The notes beneath the pieces were generated by a model, which had not been told where the DNA came from, did no database searches, and saw only the letters and a program-made list of their open reading frames with translations. A stretch of 64,000 nt of DNA from the NCBI GenBank assembly GCA_028693355.1, contig JAQUVM010000001.1:1-64000 (forward strand), read 5' to 3'. Position 1 is the first letter of the stretch, and each line of letters begins with the position of its first letter. The position numbers were made by a program, and so were the translations under genes. This stretch comes from Burkholderiales bacterium (GTDB lineage: Bacteria > Pseudomonadota > Gammaproteobacteria > Burkholderiales > UBA11063). Below are positions 9,089 to 47,473 of this stretch, piece by piece.

Positions 9089-9229
9089 AAATTCACCGCT
9101 ACCTAAATTTTTATATAATTGTCGTCATTTTATCATACTAATGTAATGTTAACCCTCACAAATTACCTATACCACTCACTAATAGTGTAAAATTATGAAG
9201 ATAAAATTATATTAGTTTAAAGGCCTGTC

Positions 9230-34933: not shown

Positions 34934-34949
34934 TGTTTCACATGAAACG
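34934..34949. promoter_or_regulatory. parS-like site
   Basis: TGTTTCACATGAAACG, 14/16 match to TGTTTCACGTGAAACA; intergenic. Confidence 0.7.
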
Positions 34950-37330: not shown

Positions 37331-38469
37331 TTATATATTATTAATAATATTTTTTGCTAATGCATATAATAGAGATATTGATTGATCTGCGAACATAAAT
37401 AATTTTACTTGTATTTTTTTGTTTATTTGCCACCCTCTAAGCCAAGCTCTAAAATGGATACTATAATTATGACCTTTTTTTACTAATTCTTTAGTTTTAA
37501 ATTTGCTTATATAACTTATATATGAGGCTAAACTATATTCTGTTAGTTTATTTTTTGTAAAATTAAACCCTAAAAAATCAAAGCCTGCGATTAGTTTACC
37601 AGTCTTGGTTTTACCACTGTGAGTAACTAATTTTAGTTTATTCAGGATTATATACATTTTGCGAATTAAATCTTTTAACTTTCTTCAGCTATTTGTAAAA
37701 AATACATAATCATCCATAAATCTAATGTAGTTAGTAGTCACCATAAGCTTATCAATTGGCAATAAAAAAACACCAGCTAAAAGTGGTGATAGTGGGCTAC
37801 CAAGAGGAATACCGAGTCGTATAATATTGACATATCCATCTAGGCTTTCTGTTCTACGAATTGTTTGATAAATTAAGCTAAGTAATGCTTTATCGTCTAT
37901 TAAATTAGCTAGCATATTACATAATATATCATGATTGATGCTACTATAAAAACTAGCAATATCTGTTTTAAAAAAGAAGGTATTATTTTGTACAAATTTA
38001 CGAGAAGAAGTGATGGCGGCTTGAATGCCGCCATTACCAGATAAATGCGTACATTGTTTAGATAGTTTTGGCTTTAAATATTCGGTTAACACTAGAGAAA
38101 TAGCTTTTATTACTATCACATCTTCGGCATTCCAAACAGCTCTTGAACCATCATCACAATTAGTACGGTAACGTAACATTGGAGAGAAGCGATAGCTTCC
38201 ATCCAATGTTTCCGAATTAGAGGCTTTATTGAATCCCAGCGCTCACGGAGTAACCAGATATCACTACTATAGCTAACTTCAGATTGAACTGTACAATGCA
38301 ATGAGCGACAACACCTATAAATAATAGGTTAGGAGCGAGTTAAGTAGTACAGTTTAAAAATGAGTTGAGCTATATCGGGGAAGTTTTCTCGTGATGTGCA
38401 ACACCATAAAAAAGCTTTCTCTAATATTTCGTTACTAGCTACTTGAGTTAAGAGCACTGAACTTTTCAA
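37331..38469 (-). pseudogene. Degraded reverse transcriptase (RNA-directed DNA polymerase)
   Basis: Pieces read ILEKAFLWCCTSRENFPD | SSDIWLLRERWDSIKPL | LDGSYRFSPMLRYRTNCDDGSRAVWNAEDVIVIKA...FFKTDIASFYSSINHD...RLGIPLGSPLSPLLAG...YIRFMDDYVFF | IAGFDFLGFNF. Broken by a MITE (38268-38374), a frameshift near 38207-38245 and an in-frame TGA at 37685-37687. Confidence 0.88.
38268..38374 (-). mobile_element. MITE copy 1, TA-flanked, inserted in the RT gene
   Basis: TIRs TATAGCTAACTTCAGATTGAACTGTAC / GTACAGTTTAAAAATGAGTTGAGCTATA. Removing it with one TA restores the reading frame FPDSSDIW. Confidence 0.85.
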
Positions 38470-38670: not shown

Positions 38671-40044
38671 TTATTGAGATACGCATACCAATCTTAAGGC
38701 AGTAAGAACAGGGGTGTCCTGACGGTCGCACGTTGATAAGTCAGCCATGATTGCGTTTTGGCCTAACACCACGGCTCCGGCCGCCACGGCAATGCCCACT
38801 GAGGTCATATTAAATGTTCCCGCGTCGCCCCAATTATTGCAATCCCCGAAACTAGCGTTATCCCAATTACCATCTAAACCAGTCCAGTACCCTAGTGTAT
38901 TTCCATACGCACTCCAGTTATATCCGTTTCCATAACCCCAAACATTGCTTAAGGGGAATGCAAAAGTAGCATCTGGTTTAGCGGTGCCTATCGTGAGGTT
39001 ACTAATAATATCAATGTAGGTCGTATCTGGGTCGAAGACCCAATCAATCGGTGAAGGTTTTGCGGAGCGGCTTGTACCGGCTATCATTGCTTTCCATGTT
39101 AGCGATCTTGCTAAATCGTTAGGTACCCACCCTGCGCTTTCAGCATCATGTTGACATATTGCATCTGCCTTAGCTATACCATTAGCGCCAGTAGGTTGCC
39201 AAACGGAATTAGCTACAACCATCGCACCATTTGGTGATGATTGTGACACGAAGACCCATTTATTAGCTGGCGGAGGTGCTGGCTGTGGGTTGACGGTAAT
39301 AGCTTTGTTTGCACTTGTATACCCATTTGCACTTGCTACTAGTGTTGTATTACCAGATTCATTTCCAGCAGTAACAGTAACATTGCATGTATTTGAAGCA
39401 GTGCTAAGATTACATGTTGATGCTGATAATGTTATTTTGCTATTATCTGCTACTACTGTTACAGGTAAACTATTTACCCCTGTACTATTACTAAGGGTAA
39501 TTGTTGCTTGTTCTGTGCTTTCAACAGTTAACTGGTTTTCTACAGATATAGACAATGTACCTGCTCTAACTTCTGGAATACTATTACTTGTTGTAACTTG
39601 CATAGTGCCCGGTAGAGATACTAGTGTACTTCCACTTATGGAGTATGCTACAGAATAAGTATATGAGCTCTCAGGTGCATTAGAACCATTAATAACTACA
39701 GCACATGAAGGAGTAGATGCAGTAATAATACATGGAGTAGGATTAAATGATGCTTGTGGAGCAGGTGGTGCAGGATTAGCAAAAGTTAATGTAATAGGTG
39801 ATTCTGAAGTGCTCATACCTGGAATTGCAATTGAACCCACAGGTGCATCTGATCTTGGATTAACTGAGAAATTTCCAGCGCTTAACTGAACTGCATGACC
39901 GTTAATAGTACCGATAGTGTCAGTAGTATTATTTCCGCCATTACTGCTACCACCGCTACATGCGCTAATTGCTAGAGGAACTACAACTAAAGCGCTGGTA
40001 ATGAGTGCGCCATTAGATATAAGTTTTGAGAATTTTTGATGCAT
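38671..40044 (-). CDS. Lipoprotein: shared stalk plus Big-like domains plus C-terminal DUF1554/C-lectin-like domain
   Basis: Lipobox LAISACSG; TIGTINGHAVQL stalk; C-terminal GANGIAKADAICQHDAESAG...WKAMIAGTSRSA...YWTGLDGNW...CNNWGDAGTFNMTSVG...LRLVCVSQ. Confidence 0.82.
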   Translation of the reverse strand: MHQKFSKLISNGALITSALVVVPLAISACSGGSSNGGNNTTDTIGTINGHAVQLSAGNFSVNPRSDAPVGSIAIPGMSTSESPITLTFANPAPPAPQASFNPTPCIITASTPSCAVVINGSNAPESSYTYSVAYSISGSTLVSLPGTMQVTTSNSIPEVRAGTLSISVENQLTVESTEQATITLSNSTGVNSLPVTVVADNSKITLSASTCNLSTASNTCNVTVTAGNESGNTTLVASANGYTSANKAITVNPQPAPPPANKWVFVSQSSPNGAMVVANSVWQPTGANGIAKADAICQHDAESAGWVPNDLARSLTWKAMIAGTSRSAKPSPIDWVFDPDTTYIDIISNLTIGTAKPDATFAFPLSNVWGYGNGYNWSAYGNTLGYWTGLDGNWDNASFGDCNNWGDAGTFNMTSVGIAVAAGAVVLGQNAIMADLSTCDRQDTPVLTALRLVCVSQ

Positions 40045-40266: not shown

Positions 40267-41226
40267 TTAATTGAGAACTATACTTTTTATAGTATTAATA
40301 ACATCACTAACAAGCACTTCCATTCCTTTACCTCCAAGATTTTTAGCTATATCAGATTCTAATATACCTACATACCCTGGATCACTCGCCAAATATATAG
40401 CTATAGTTGGTGTATGTGTTAAATTAGCAAAATGAGTAAATCCTGTATCTACACCTATTACTACATCAGATTTAACTATTAGATCCGCTAGTTTAGTAAA
40501 AGATAACTTTTCAATAAGAGTAATTCGTTCGCTATTTAAATTACTAATTAAACTTATAGCAAATTCATATTCAGCTTGATTACTATAAGTTATAACTATT
40601 TGTTTATTGCTATTATTAATCACCCAATTAGACAATTCAGTCCAATTTTCTAAAGACCATTTTTTATTTTCTTTAGACGTACCATGTAAAAATAATATAT
40701 AACCATTTACAAAATTTATTCCACAATCTTCAGATTTATATTGAAAATCAATTTTACGTAAATCATGCTTTAGATTAAATATTTTGGCTATAAGACCACG
40801 TAATCTTGGTACTGCAATATTATTTTGATTTACATTATAAGTAAAATCATAAAATAAACTAGCTATAGGCTCACGAGCCGACTTTCTATCCAATCCGAAC
40901 ACATAACCATCAAAAAGGTATTTGGATAGCATAGCGGACTTAATAAGACCCTGTGTATCGATTATATAGTCGTATTTGGTATTAGATAATGTCTTTTTAA
41001 AATTAGCTAGTTTATTAAACCAAGTAAATTTATTTTTTTTCCATTTTCTAAGTGGAATAGGAATTACATTATCAATAAGTGGAGATAAATTAGCAACTCC
41101 AGTAAAATTTTCATCAACTAACCAATCAATAGTTACATTGGGATTGGTTTTTTTAATATCAGGTAATACAGTGAATGTGTGAAAAATATCACCAATTGAC
41201 GACAATCTTATTATTAATATACGCAC
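40267..41226 (-). CDS. waaC: LPS heptosyltransferase I
   Basis: MRILIIRLSSIGDIFHTFTVLPDI, DTQGLIKSA, LFLHGTSKENKKW, GVDTGFTHFANL. Confidence 0.94.
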   Translation of the reverse strand: MRILIIRLSSIGDIFHTFTVLPDIKKTNPNVTIDWLVDENFTGVANLSPLIDNVIPIPLRKWKKNKFTWFNKLANFKKTLSNTKYDYIIDTQGLIKSAMLSKYLFDGYVFGLDRKSAREPIASLFYDFTYNVNQNNIAVPRLRGLIAKIFNLKHDLRKIDFQYKSEDCGINFVNGYILFLHGTSKENKKWSLENWTELSNWVINNSNKQIVITYSNQAEYEFAISLISNLNSERITLIEKLSFTKLADLIVKSDVVIGVDTGFTHFANLTHTPTIAIYLASDPGYVGILESDIAKNLGGKGMEVLVSDVINTIKSIVLN

Positions 41227-41235
41227 AAATATTCC

Positions 41236-41807
41236 TTATCCACAGTTTATTGTTAATAACTTCATTTTATCTTGTTATGAATTATAAGTTATCCACAGAT
41301 TTTATATTTTTCATTTTTTTATTTACAATCATTTTTATAAAAATACCTACATTTTATACAAAGTAAATACTTATATAACTATCTATTATATTTATCTAAT
41401 TTAAGTTATCCACATAAAAACTAGTATATAATAACAATAATAAAATATATTTTATATAAATAATTAATATATTGCAAATAAATTAAAAGATAAAACTTAT
41501 TTTTTAAAAATGAGTATTTAAAAATATTTTAGAACATTTTTTTATCTTGTATAAATATATACTATTAATTAGTTAATAAAGTTTAGTTATCCACAGGTTT
41601 ATAAAAAGATTAAAACTTATCCACAAATAGTCAACTGTAAATAGTCTAGAAATATACAAAGTAATTCAATGATTAATACTTTGATTTATATATTTTTTTT
41701 TAGATATAAACAGAAAAAATGTAAGCTAATAATAACAATAAATTATATGATATTATATATATAATAAATAAATGTTAAAATTACGTTCTGCAAAAAGGAG
41801 TTTATAA
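41236..41807. other. Putative chromosomal replication origin (oriC)
   Basis: Perfect DnaA boxes TTATCCACA at 41236, 41289, 41406, 41587 and 41617, all on + strand, in a very AT-rich ~570-bp intergenic region between divergent genes, with parS sites nearby. Confidence 0.78.
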
Positions 41808-42581
41808 ATGGCAAAAGAAGGTAAATATACCGTTGAAAAGATTACATATTTAAAACAATGGACAGATCATTTATTTAGTTTTAAGATTACTAGAGATTCT
41901 GCTTATAAATTTATTCCAGGTCAATTTGCACGTTTAGGTGTAAAAAAAGAAGATGATACTATTGTTTGGAGACCTTACTCTATAGTATCTGCTGATTATG
42001 ATGAAGAATTAGAGTTTTATTCGATAGTAGTTCCAGATGGCGAATTCACACAAAAGCTTAAAGACCTTAAATGTGGTGATGATATATATATAGATAAAAC
42101 AAATTATGGATTATTAACTACCGATAGATTTGAAAATGGTAAAGATTTATGGTTTTTATCAACTGGTACTGGGTTAGCTCCATTTATTTCTATAATGTAT
42201 GATTTCTCTATTTGGGAACAATATGATAAAGTAATATTAGTGCACGGTGTACGTGAAGAGAACGAACTAACTTATCAAGAAGAAATAAATTCTTTCTTTA
42301 CTCATGAATATTATGGTGAACTAGTAAAAGATAAACTACAATATATAAAAGTTGTTTCACGTGAAACAACAGGTGATTTAAATGGAAGAATTACAACTTT
42401 AATAGAAAATGGTGAATTAGAAAAATTTGCTAATACTCCTATTACTATTGAAAGTAGTCGTATAATGATTTGTGGTAATCCACAAATGGTAGATGATACA
42501 CGTAAAATATTAGCTGCACGTGGGTTAACTATATCTAAAAGAGCTAATCCTGGTAATATGGCTGTTGAAAATCTATGGTAA
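41808..42581 (+). CDS. fpr: Ferredoxin--NADP reductase
   Basis: FIPGQFARLGV, WRPYSIVSADYDEELEFYSIVVPDGEFTQKL, LSTGTGLAPFISI, ICGNPQMVDD. Confidence 0.93.
   Translation: MAKEGKYTVEKITYLKQWTDHLFSFKITRDSAYKFIPGQFARLGVKKEDDTIVWRPYSIVSADYDEELEFYSIVVPDGEFTQKLKDLKCGDDIYIDKTNYGLLTTDRFENGKDLWFLSTGTGLAPFISIMYDFSIWEQYDKVILVHGVREENELTYQEEINSFFTHEYYGELVKDKLQYIKVVSRETTGDLNGRITTLIENGELEKFANTPITIESSRIMICGNPQMVDDTRKILAARGLTISKRANPGNMAVENLW
42353..42368. promoter_or_regulatory. Perfect parS site within fpr
   Basis: TGTTTCACGTGAAACA, exact 16-bp palindrome. Confidence 0.88.
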
Positions 42582-42716
42582 TAATATAAATTAAACCTTT
42601 AGGGCTAGTATATTGTAAAATATATCTTTAACATACGTATGAACATAATTAATGTATTTTAAAAATAAATAATTTTATTTACATTAGATTATGTTTTTAT
42701 TTTAAAAGGTTTTTAT

Positions 42717-43388
42717 ATGTCAAATATTAAATTTTCAATTTCAGTATTGTTAGGATTTATTATTTTATCTGGTAGTTTAGTGTATATTAATAAAAATAAA
42801 GATACATTAGTTCAAGCTAAAGGTGTAGCAGAAGTTAAAGTTAAATCAGATTTAGCTACTTGGCAAATATCACTTAATCAATCTGGATATAATTTAGCTT
42901 CAGCATATAATCAAATGGAGAGTGATCAAAGTAATGTAATTGCAATATTAAAAGATCAAGGTATTCAAGAAAGTGATATTCAATCTAATAATATTTCTAT
43001 TTCAAATATGTTGATTGATAATAAAACTCAGTATCAAATATATAATACTATTACTGTTTCTAGTAAAAATGTTGATTCAATATATAAAATTAATCAAAAT
43101 CAAAAGCTTTTTATAGATAAAGGTATTTTTATTTCTGGTAGTTATGTAAATTATTATTTTACTGCAATTAATAATATTAAAGAACCTCTTTTAAAAGATT
43201 CTGTTCTTAATACTAAAATATCAGCTGGTAAAATAGCTGGAAATCTTAACAAAGAAATTGCTGAAGTTAGAAACATTAATCAAGGTGTTATCTCAGTTAA
43301 TTCAGCAGATGGTAGTCAATACAATGATATTAATTCATTATATAAAACAGTTAGAGTTGTAACAACTGCGACTTACTTAATGAAATAA
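42717..43388 (+). CDS. SIMPL domain (DUF541) protein
   Basis: VQAKGVAEVKVKSDLATWQISLNQSG..., N-terminal TM anchor. Confidence 0.85.
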   Translation: MSNIKFSISVLLGFIILSGSLVYINKNKDTLVQAKGVAEVKVKSDLATWQISLNQSGYNLASAYNQMESDQSNVIAILKDQGIQESDIQSNNISISNMLIDNKTQYQIYNTITVSSKNVDSIYKINQNQKLFIDKGIFISGSYVNYYFTAINNIKEPLLKDSVLNTKISAGKIAGNLNKEIAEVRNINQGVISVNSADGSQYNDINSLYKTVRVVTTATYLMK

Positions 43389-43450
43389 AATATAAATAAT
43401 TATTAAAAATTTTAATAATAATACCTCTACAAATTAAGTAGGGGTATTGT

Positions 43451-43466
43451 TGTTTCATGTGGAACA
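43451..43466. promoter_or_regulatory. parS-like site upstream of rsmB
   Basis: TGTTTCATGTGGAACA, 14/16 match to the parS consensus. Confidence 0.68.
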
Positions 43467-43468
43467 TT

Positions 43469-44695
43469 ATGAGCGAATATAAAATAATAAAAAGAATTAT
43501 AGATTTAGTTTATTATGAAAATAAAAATTTAAATGATTTAATTAATCAGTATAAAGAAGATGAAAATATAGTAAAAATAAGATATATTGTTTATGATTTA
43601 CTACGTTATAGTACATCTATTGATTATATATTGAGTAAACTAGTAAGAAATATTGATTATGATGTAATGGGTATTCTTAGAATAGGTATATATGAGCTTT
43701 GGTTAAGTAAAAAACCTGAATATGCAATTATTAATGATTTAGTTAATTTAACTAAAGAATTTGATGAAAAAAAGAAATCATTTGTAAATGCAGTATTGCG
43801 TAGTTTTCAAAGAAGTAAAGAAAAATTTATAAAAGATATAGATAATGAATACTCGTATAAATATAATATTCCATCATGGTTATTAAACTATTTAAAAAAA
43901 GAATATAAAAATAATTATCTAGAAATAATAAAAAGTTTTATGTATAAACCATCTTTTGGTTTAAGAGTTAATAGTAAAAAGAACTCATATAATGAATATT
44001 TGAAATTATTAATAGAAAATAATATTGAATATAAAGAAATTGATAGCAAAATAGTTTTAGATAAAGCTATTAATGTTAGTGGAATACCGGGCTTTTATGA
44101 GGGCTTGGTGAGTGTCCAAGATGTAGCGGCACAGTATATGCTAGATATATTAAAAAAACATAATATTGAAATAAAAAATGCTCTAGATATATGTAGTGCA
44201 CCAGGTGGCAAAACTTGCCAGTTATTAGAAAATTATGATTGTAATTTAACGTCTGTAGATATAGATGAAAATCGTTTAAAAAAAGTAAAGCAAAATTTAG
44301 ACAGATTAGAACTTAATTGCAATACTATACTAGGCGATGCTAATAATAAACGTTGGTGGAATGGTGACAAGTATGATTTTATTATTGCTGATGTACCTTG
44401 TTCAGCTCTTGGAACTATTAAAAGAAATCCAGATATAAAAATAACACGACGTTTAGAGGAAATTAGTAATTTTGTACAAACGCAAAGAAGTATTATTAAT
44501 AATATTTGGGAATTATTAAATTTAAATTGTTACATGATATATATAACTTGTTCTATTATGAAAGAAGAAAATCAATTAAATGTAGAATGGTTATCTAATA
44601 ATTTAAATGGATTTAAGATTATAGATGAGCTACAAATTTACCCATCTGAAAATAACGATGGTTTGTATTATGCTTTAATTAAAAAAGTAGGATGA
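43469..44695 (+). CDS. rsmB: 16S rRNA (cytosine(967)-C(5))-methyltransferase
   Basis: NusB-like N-terminus; PGFYEGLVSVQDVAAQ, DICSAPGGKTCQLLE, DVPCSALGTIKRNPDIK. Start taken at MSEYK (ORF track 43457). Confidence 0.95.
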   Translation: MSEYKIIKRIIDLVYYENKNLNDLINQYKEDENIVKIRYIVYDLLRYSTSIDYILSKLVRNIDYDVMGILRIGIYELWLSKKPEYAIINDLVNLTKEFDEKKKSFVNAVLRSFQRSKEKFIKDIDNEYSYKYNIPSWLLNYLKKEYKNNYLEIIKSFMYKPSFGLRVNSKKNSYNEYLKLLIENNIEYKEIDSKIVLDKAINVSGIPGFYEGLVSVQDVAAQYMLDILKKHNIEIKNALDICSAPGGKTCQLLENYDCNLTSVDIDENRLKKVKQNLDRLELNCNTILGDANNKRWWNGDKYDFIIADVPCSALGTIKRNPDIKITRRLEEISNFVQTQRSIINNIWELLNLNCYMIYITCSIMKEENQLNVEWLSNNLNGFKIIDELQIYPSENNDGLYYALIKKVG

Positions 44696-46824
44696 TTATG
44701 AAAAAAATAAATATAATATTTTTTACAGTAATTTTAACATTAATAATGTTTAGTTATTTTTATGTAACTATATATTCAAAATACGATGTTATGCTTTATT
44801 TGAATGATTATAGAAAAATTATTCAATTAAATAAAGTAATAGAAGCAATTTTATTATTTATTATTTTTGGGTTCGTGTATAGATTATTTTTTAGAAAAAA
44901 TAATGCCTTTGGATCTATTCTTACAAAAAAACTATTTATACTATTATCAATAGTGATACTAATACCATCATTAATAAATATAAAAATAGCTAATTACTTT
45001 ATTGATAATACGGTTAATAGATTATTTAATCCTCAAATAGAACAACTTTTAGATAATAGCTTTAATATAGCAGAAGAAAGTATAAAATATTTCTCTAAAG
45101 AATTACGTAAGAAGTCAGTAATTGCAGGTGAATATTTAAAGCTAACTGATAAAGATGAAAGTAAATCAGAAATAGCCAAAGTTAGAAAAATGCTTGATGT
45201 TGATGGGATTAGTATTTATAACAATAAAGGAAATTTATTAGTTCAAGATAACGATAAGAAATATTTAAACGATGAGTTAGAAGATTTTATTGTAGCCAAA
45301 ATAAAAAAAGTTGGTTATTTTTATGAAATAAATAAAAGCAAAGGTGGAGATTATATATTTAATTATTATCAATATTATAATGATGGAAAAATAGTTGCTT
45401 TAAGTCAAATTGCTCCAGAATTTATAAAAATTGATAATAATAATATATTGCATAATAAAGAACTTTATCAAGGATTATTAAATAATAAAGATAATTTAAA
45501 AGATGTATACACGAGTACTCTGATTATAAGTGTTTTATTATCTATAACTATTGCTGTGTTATTAACGTTATTCTTTGCACAATTTTTGATAAAACGTATT
45601 TCTAGTTTAATTGAAAATATAGAGTCTATAAAAAAAGGTTCTTATAGTAATCAAAATATATTTAAAGGTAATGATGAATTATCTCAATTAATTCACTCTT
45701 TTAATGATATGGGACATAGCTTGGAAGAATCTCAAAAAATAGAGAAAAAGCAAAAATTAGAATTAACGGAATACAAAAATTATCTTGAAAATATTATAAA
45801 TAATCTAAGCCTTAGTGTGATAGTTTATGATGATAAATATGTTATAAAAAATGTTAATTTAATAACACAAGATATTTTAAATATAGAAATAAATGATATA
45901 TTAAATATAAATATTGATAAATGGGATAATTCATATAAACATTTAGAAGGTTTAATTAAACTAATTAAAACAAAACTAGAATATGAATTAAATGAATGGG
46001 AAGAAAATATAGTATTTAGATATAAACATTATATAAAAAATTTATATGTAAAAACTATTCGTTATGAAATAAATGGCAGTATTGAATATATTACATTAAT
46101 AAGTGATGTAACTAATCTAATTATAGCTAGGCAAAATCAAGCTTGGGCTGATATTGCAAAACGATTAGCTCATGAAATAAAAAACCCATTAACGCCAATA
46201 GTTCTATCAGCTGAACGTATTCAAATGAAATTAGTTCCGAAGTTGATAGAAAAAGATCAGGAATTTTTAAATAGATTAGTTAATCAAATTATTTTACAAG
46301 TTGATGATTTAAAAGAGCTTGTTAATAAGTTTAGAGATTTTGCTAACATAAGTAAACCGCATTTAGTTAGACTTAATTTGGTAGAGTTTTTTAATCAATT
46401 TATGATACTTTATGAAAATATGAGCTTTATAAAACTTATCCATAATTTACCAGAAAATAAGAGTTTTGTTTTAGGTGATCAAAGTTTATTAAGACAAGTT
46501 TTTCATAACTTAGTAAAAAATTCTATAGAAAGTGTTGAAAATAATGAAAATAAAGATGTAAAAATTACCTTAACATGTACAGAAAATGTTATGAATATTT
46601 TGGTTAGTGATAATGGGCATGGTTTTAGTGAAAACATTATGAATAACCTGTTTGAGCCTTATCAGACAACGAAAGGAGTTAAAGGAAGTGGCCTAGGCAT
46701 GGCAATAGTTAAGAAAATTATTGATGAGCATCATGGAAAAATTGAAGTATTTAATGACGATGGAGCTAATATTGTAGTAAAATTACCACTAACCGTTTCC
46801 AATGTAGAATTTGATAGGTTATAA
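44692..46824 (+). CDS. ntrY: Nitrogen regulation sensor histidine kinase NtrY
   Basis: TM/HAMP region, PAS, H-box WADIAKRLAHEIKNPLTPIVLSAERIQ, N/G boxes. Confidence 0.93.
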   Translation: MIMKKINIIFFTVILTLIMFSYFYVTIYSKYDVMLYLNDYRKIIQLNKVIEAILLFIIFGFVYRLFFRKNNAFGSILTKKLFILLSIVILIPSLINIKIANYFIDNTVNRLFNPQIEQLLDNSFNIAEESIKYFSKELRKKSVIAGEYLKLTDKDESKSEIAKVRKMLDVDGISIYNNKGNLLVQDNDKKYLNDELEDFIVAKIKKVGYFYEINKSKGGDYIFNYYQYYNDGKIVALSQIAPEFIKIDNNNILHNKELYQGLLNNKDNLKDVYTSTLIISVLLSITIAVLLTLFFAQFLIKRISSLIENIESIKKGSYSNQNIFKGNDELSQLIHSFNDMGHSLEESQKIEKKQKLELTEYKNYLENIINNLSLSVIVYDDKYVIKNVNLITQDILNIEINDILNINIDKWDNSYKHLEGLIKLIKTKLEYELNEWEENIVFRYKHYIKNLYVKTIRYEINGSIEYITLISDVTNLIIARQNQAWADIAKRLAHEIKNPLTPIVLSAERIQMKLVPKLIEKDQEFLNRLVNQIILQVDDLKELVNKFRDFANISKPHLVRLNLVEFFNQFMILYENMSFIKLIHNLPENKSFVLGDQSLLRQVFHNLVKNSIESVENNENKDVKITLTCTENVMNILVSDNGHGFSENIMNNLFEPYQTTKGVKGSGLGMAIVKKIIDEHHGKIEVFNDDGANIVVKLPLTVSNVEFDRL

Positions 46825-46891
46825 TTAATAAATTAATAAAAATTGATAAGGCATTATACTGTCTTATCAACGTATAAATTTGGAGGACAAA

Positions 46892-47473
46892 TTGAGTAAA
46901 ACAATTTTAATAGTTGATGATGAATTAGGAATTCGCGAGCTATTGAGAGAATGTCTGGAAGATGAAGGATATTCTGTTAAGTTAGCGGAAAATGCACTAG
47001 AGGCAGATAAATTAGTAAAAGATAATAGATTTGATTTAATTTTGATGGATGTTTGGTTACCTGATATGGATGGAGTTTCTTTATTTAAGAGATTTTTATC
47101 TAACGGTGTAGTTACACCTGTTATCATGATGTCAGGTCATGCTTCAATTACAAGTGCGTTAGAAGCAATTAGAATTGGTGCAAGAGATTTCTTAGAAAAA
47201 CCACTTTCTTTAAGTAAGTTGCTTCCATTAGTGGATAAGCATATATTAAAGGAAATCGGTGGTAATGATGGATTATTAGAAGATATTTCTGAAATCATTA
47301 CCTTAGATTTAAATAATCCTTTAAAGGGTATTAAAGAAAATCTAGAAAGAAGATATTTCCTATATCATATGAATAAATACCGTGGTAATATTACTAAGAT
47401 AGCAGAAGTATCTGGAGTGGATAGAGCTCATTTATACCGTAAGTTTAAAACGCTTGGTATAAAAATAAAATAA
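46892..47473 (+). CDS. ntrX: Response regulator NtrX, short form lacking AAA+ domain
   Basis: Receiver (ILIVDDELGIRELL...LILMDVWLPDMDG...DFLEKP) joined directly to a Fis-type HTH (GNITKIAEVSGVDRAHLYRKFKTLGI). TTG start after GGAGG; ORF track 46880. Confidence 0.88.
   Translation: MSKTILIVDDELGIRELLRECLEDEGYSVKLAENALEADKLVKDNRFDLILMDVWLPDMDGVSLFKRFLSNGVVTPVIMMSGHASITSALEAIRIGARDFLEKPLSLSKLLPLVDKHILKEIGGNDGLLEDISEIITLDLNNPLKGIKENLERRYFLYHMNKYRGNITKIAEVSGVDRAHLYRKFKTLGIKIK

Follow-up and report, generated by a model that had tools for sequence, protein, structure and literature searches.

Where does replication of the chromosome start in an Aquella-like, water-dwelling betaproteobacterium whose candidate origin has no dnaA beside it? 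The question is raised by a 581-bp gap between the divergent genes waaC and fpr in a 64-kb stretch of DNA, the window, which was analysed as a whole and belongs to a draft genome (G000) of 2.31 Mb in 169 contigs; its nearest relatives with a name are metagenome-assembled genomes of Neisseriaceae/Burkholderiales. An earlier note on this DNA had put forward a chromosomal origin here, with five perfect TTATCCACA boxes in one orientation and an extremely AT-rich composition. All five boxes are present on the + strand, the gap has ~85% A+T, and both neighbours are annotated with the described orientations. The proposal gains support from the skew minimum and parS sites in relatives, from the rarity of box clusters and from a dnaA locus that is mostly free of boxes. 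Judged from sequence, the waaC-fpr gap is almost certainly the chromosomal replication origin (oriC) of this bacterium. Its main features are:

40267-41226, - strand: waaC, LPS heptosyltransferase I, transcribed away from the origin (TIGR02193, 285.9 bits, cut-off 185.3)
41227-41807, + strand: proposed oriC, the waaC/fpr intergenic region (box excess, 84.5% A+T, box-bearing gap in the same synteny elsewhere in the genus)
41236-41244, + strand: DnaA box 1, TTATCCACA, exact match
41289-41297, + strand: DnaA box 2 (module 1), TTATCCACA, exact match, with its counterpart, box 4, 298 bp on
41406-41414, + strand: DnaA box 3, exact match, adjoining the first DnaA-trio run
41587-41595, + strand: DnaA box 4 (module 2), exact match
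41617-41625, + strand: DnaA box 5, exact match
41808-42581, + strand: fpr, ferredoxin-NADP(+) reductase, the flank that stays with the origin across the genus (annotation and synteny)

The boxes form a cluster above chance, as is characteristic of a DnaA-dependent oriC. The five exact boxes of the gap compare with 0.00 expected, a count matched in none of 500 dinucleotide shuffles, while the window as a whole has seven against 0.95 expected (at least seven in 0 of 100 shuffles). The draft genome contains 43 exact boxes, and nowhere else in it is the box density of the gap approached. Outside the gap, three or more exact boxes within 200 bp occur at one place only, upstream of recC on contig C121; the many similar clusters that would have spoken against the earlier note are thus absent from the draft genome.

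The C121 group was considered as a rival origin and rejected. Its boxes are inverted and flanked by recC and a rhodanese-like ORF, and Aquella oligotrophica has a comparable group ahead of recC, so that the C121 group looks regulatory. The inverted pair and further boxes lie just upstream of the recC-like gene in both genomes (L124 2743-2935 on C121; L226 5635-5728 in A. oligotrophica), and a similar inverted pair is found before an xseA-like gene in genome G015 (L223 5791-5813), the names recC-like and xseA-like resting on translations. DnaA might possibly control these recombination genes.

The gap also has an A+T-rich element of low stability beside the boxes, as needed for unwinding in a DnaA-dependent oriC. 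The 300 bp richest in A+T and the two 100-bp stretches lowest in stability, as judged over the whole window, lie inside it, and these two stretches coincide with two runs of DnaA-trios:

41372-41471, unstranded: candidate DNA unwinding element 1, the 100 bp of lowest stability in the window (nearest-neighbour energies)
41429-41443, + strand: DnaA-trio run 1, TAATAACAATAATAA, separated from box 3 by a 14-bp spacer (1 match against 0.013 per shuffle)
41683-41782, unstranded: candidate DNA unwinding element 2, the 100 bp of second lowest stability in the window (nearest-neighbour energies)
41704-41712, + strand: degenerate box ATATAAACA, the second-copy counterpart of box 3 (repeat alignment)
41727-41741, + strand: DnaA-trio run 2, TAATAATAACAATAA, ~300 bp past run 1 (repeat alignment)

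The basal unwinding system (BUS) is defined by DnaA boxes, a spacer and DnaA-trios (PMC8287927), and box 3, the 14-bp spacer and TAATAACAATAATAA follow each other in this order. Under a strict BUS rule (a DnaA box with at most 2 mismatches, a spacer of at most 16 bp and at least 3 trios) module 1 passes while module 2, whose box has 3 mismatches, fails.

Box clusters and the box/spacer/trio module recur in the orthologous gap across the genus. The reference for this comparison was A. oligotrophica (G016), a single complete contig of 2,820,660 bp, taken as strain P08 and of the same genus as G000; its fpr (160478-161251, - strand) and waaC (161587-162528, + strand) are divergent as in the window. 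Strict modules are found in 7 of 11 orthologous gaps, against 0.7-2% of shuffles, all on the same strand and reading toward fpr. Enrichment of the TTATNMACA class is reached in 0-1 of 500 shuffles in every relative. The A. oligotrophica gap has no exact box and that of G015 only one 1-mismatch box; exact-box counts alone show no cluster in A. oligotrophica, where 1-mismatch boxes and parS locate the origin. The gap and its neighbours fpr-rsmB-NtrX-cysS are syntenic across the genus. In G020 (C96 and C142) waaC is on a different contig from the box-bearing gap, which remains next to fpr, so that fpr, not waaC, is the gene linked to the origin.

The earlier note had also described a flip of base composition across the site, from hand counts that are exact (C16/G5 in 40321-40380, G13/C3 in 43441-43500), with a contribution of gene orientation. 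The flip is real and gene orientation is not its sole cause, since genes on the same strand shift too. Third-position G/C skew, read on the + strand, passes from -0.02 to +0.32 in + strand genes and from -0.22 to +0.07 in - strand genes, a change of about +0.3 across the gap. Raw cumulative skew in the window contig has a minimum at 41635 (-343), rivalled by a slightly deeper one at 9179 (-376), and the best strand-corrected breakpoint falls at 37.2-37.7 kb, 4 kb left of the gap and near a G+C-richer atypical gene (38671-40044). This ambiguity gives weight to the skew of the relatives.

In A. oligotrophica, scanned over 190 kb (90-280 kb), the cumulative minimum lies in the 160-162 kb bin, which is the waaC/fpr gap, and reaches -1852 against -1547 and -1451 at secondary dips; the third-position breakpoint corrected for gene strand is at 160.5-161.6 kb. 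Coarse sampling round this chromosome gives an arm of negative and an arm of positive skew, and the opposite switch lies near 1.5-1.7 Mb. The contigs of four draft relatives (G006, G015, G022 and G013) have their minimum 179-330 bp from the centre of the orthologous gap. The chromosomal GC-skew minimum proposed in the earlier note as a check is thus found at the gap in relatives, and in the draft genome locally only, beside the second minimum at 9179.

Sites for ParB are a known marker of the origin region (PMC7022226), and they too are found near the gap. The window contains:

34934-34949, unstranded: parS-like site with 2 mismatches (motif match)
42353-42368, unstranded: exact parS palindrome TGTTTCACGTGAAACA, within the coding part of fpr and 0.55 kb away from the gap (motif match)
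43451-43466, unstranded: parS-like site with 2 mismatches (motif match)

In all seven genus members tested, each exact or 1-mismatch parS site is either beside fpr or at most ~6 kb from the gap; among the 16 order-level relatives that have such sites, 14 have them at most 100 kb from dnaA. As an origin marker independent of boxes and skew, parS supports placing the origin at the waaC/fpr gap. The parB gene of A. oligotrophica (G016 C1:2309588-2310124) is ~670 kb from the origin and parS, outside the usual 20% origin domain. G026, a complete genome of 3.6 Mb from another family of the order, has parS at 1.69-1.76 Mb, more than 400 kb from dnaA (1.28 Mb), which makes it a further candidate for separation of origin and dnaA.

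The usual neighbours of an origin are elsewhere. The earlier note had found no dnaA, dnaN, rpmH or gidA (mnmG) in the window, and all of them are indeed on other contigs of the draft genome: dnaA-dnaN on C83, beside a dicarboxylate-symporter-like gene and glyA (both named from translations), and rpmH on C41. Its parB is likewise on a contig other than that of the window. In A. oligotrophica the origin is at 161 kb, dnaA at 208 kb (47 kb away), mnmG at 299 kb, rpmH at 1.21 Mb and parB at 2.31 Mb; neither genome has dnaA, dnaN or rpmH next to the origin.

The strongest competing explanation would keep the origin at dnaA-dnaN and make the waaC-fpr cluster a site for DnaA titration or regulation, like datA or a DnaA-controlled waaC/fpr promoter. 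The short distance to dnaA in A. oligotrophica and the presence of a box group at another gene, recC, agree with it. The dnaA locus itself does not: exact boxes are absent from the 11-kb contig C83, and the 1.2 kb upstream of dnaA have no exact or 1-mismatch box in six of the seven members of the genus and just one in the remaining member. The trio repeats and the least stable DNA are at the waaC-fpr gap, and boxes, skew minimum and parS point to waaC/fpr, not to dnaA. An origin at dnaA was therefore rejected as very improbable. In other families of the order dnaA is mostly flanked by boxes, so that the separation of the origin from dnaA-dnaN looks like a derived state in the Aquella genus.

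The surroundings of the gap have some features of their own. No tRNA gene was found in the 64-kb window and no Rfam family matched in its 34-50 kb part. GC content falls to 22-24% over core genes beside the origin (42001-47000), with a dip at the same place in A. oligotrophica. The atypical gene at 38671-40044 (- strand, 42.5% GC) codes a predicted lipoprotein-like product of 457 amino acids, rich in serine and threonine, with an N-terminal signal and cysteine; it has no Pfam or NCBIfam match and may have been acquired. A short ORF at 37331-37657 (- strand) has a weak match to the group II intron reverse transcriptase/maturase family and is a probable remnant of such a gene.

Plasmid origins carry box arrays too, and the cluster could serve as origin to a mobile element, such as a plasmid or phage that integrated here, the partial reverse transcriptase ORF being only 4 kb away. 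This is exceedingly unlikely given the synteny of the gap and fpr-rsmB-NtrX-cysS across the genus, the core functions of the annotated flanking genes, among which no replication initiator was found, and the switch of chromosome skew at this locus in A. oligotrophica. It is just as hard to sustain that an ancestral weak origin near dnaA fires in addition to the one at waaC-fpr, an idea favoured by minor skew dips of A. oligotrophica at about 192 and 206 kb but opposed by the single main minimum and the lack of a box cluster at dnaA.

With the waaC-fpr gap as the origin, initiation may be pictured as follows. DnaA produced from the remote dnaA-dnaN locus would bind the row of like-oriented TTATCCACA boxes, and box 3, closest to the trios, would direct it to the neighbouring DnaA-trios, a series of TAA/TAG triplets. 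Toward fpr, the DNA of extreme A+T content would then melt and receive the helicase, two forks would leave in opposite directions, and ParB bound to the nearby parS sites would separate the new origins.

The gap is a tandem duplication of ~300 bp, as seen from boxes 41289 and 41587 (298 bp apart) and from the spacing of the trio runs, and it therefore has two potential unwinding modules, in the same orientation. Alignment of one half of the gap to the other is far above shuffles in G000, G006, G020, G002, G008 and G022 (z 4.7-9.9) and borderline in G013 (z 2.6); it found no duplicated halves in A. oligotrophica, G015, G018 and G004. The strict BUS rule overlooks module 2 of G000 and the modules of G022 and G013, seen only by this alignment. 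An exact box lies beside the trios in both copies of G006, 301 bp apart, while the trio-side box of the second copy in G000 has decayed to ATATAAACA at 41704; the A. oligotrophica gap has a single module. Module 1, with its intact box beside the trios, would probably be the main opener in G000. A bolder reading, possible but less likely than not, is that both like-oriented modules are complete and usable by DnaA, and that they were duplicated in tandem, kept as Aquella-like species diverged and reduced to one in A. oligotrophica. If true, the two-module series offers a natural test of how many unwinding modules an origin needs. With the module intact twice, with one decayed box or single, redundancy versus regulation becomes testable.

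A description of the Aquella origin was not found in open papers, the species paper (PMC6612550) mentioning neither oriC nor dnaA. Neither the waaC-fpr setting nor a tandemly duplicated unwinding module turned up in the open papers covered. The locus provides a betaproteobacterial case in which the origin has parted from dnaA-dnaN and parS has stayed with the origin. Origin finders and growth-rate estimates from ori:ter ratios often lean on dnaA, and here dnaA, rpmH and parB would mislead.

The oriC of Escherichia coli sits in a gidA-mioC context. The neighbours here are waaC and fpr, mnmG being ~138 kb from the origin in A. oligotrophica, and the G000 origin differs further in having exact boxes only, all in one direction, and a duplicated unwinding module. 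Origins usually flank dnaA but many, including that of E. coli, do not (PMC4285127), and the two share a DnaA-box oriC outside the rnpA-rpmH-dnaA-dnaN cluster (PMC4285127). The BUS of Bacillus subtilis, a system predicted in 85% of origins examined (PMC8287927), is matched in G000 by an exact box, a 14-bp spacer and TAA-type trios on the same strand and in the expected order, but G000 has two like-oriented copies ~300 bp apart, and in the second of them the box is degenerate. Multiple clusters of DnaA boxes are also found in the bipartite origins of B. subtilis and Helicobacter pylori (PMC4285127), but the G000 parts are a tandem repeat within one gap, with no gene between them, and each has its own trio and low-stability stretch. 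The oriC of Synechococcus lividus PCC 6715 is far from dnaA and dnaN (DoriC 10, PMC6323995). Like the G000 origin, it is predicted, has clustered boxes and lies apart from both genes, although origins of the lineage usually have one of them as a neighbour. That organism is a cyanobacterium with TTTTCCACA boxes, while the present case is betaproteobacterial, with TTATCCACA boxes and parS support. With E. coli and cyanobacterial origins away from dnaA, the kind of origin proposed for the waaC-fpr gap is therefore already known.
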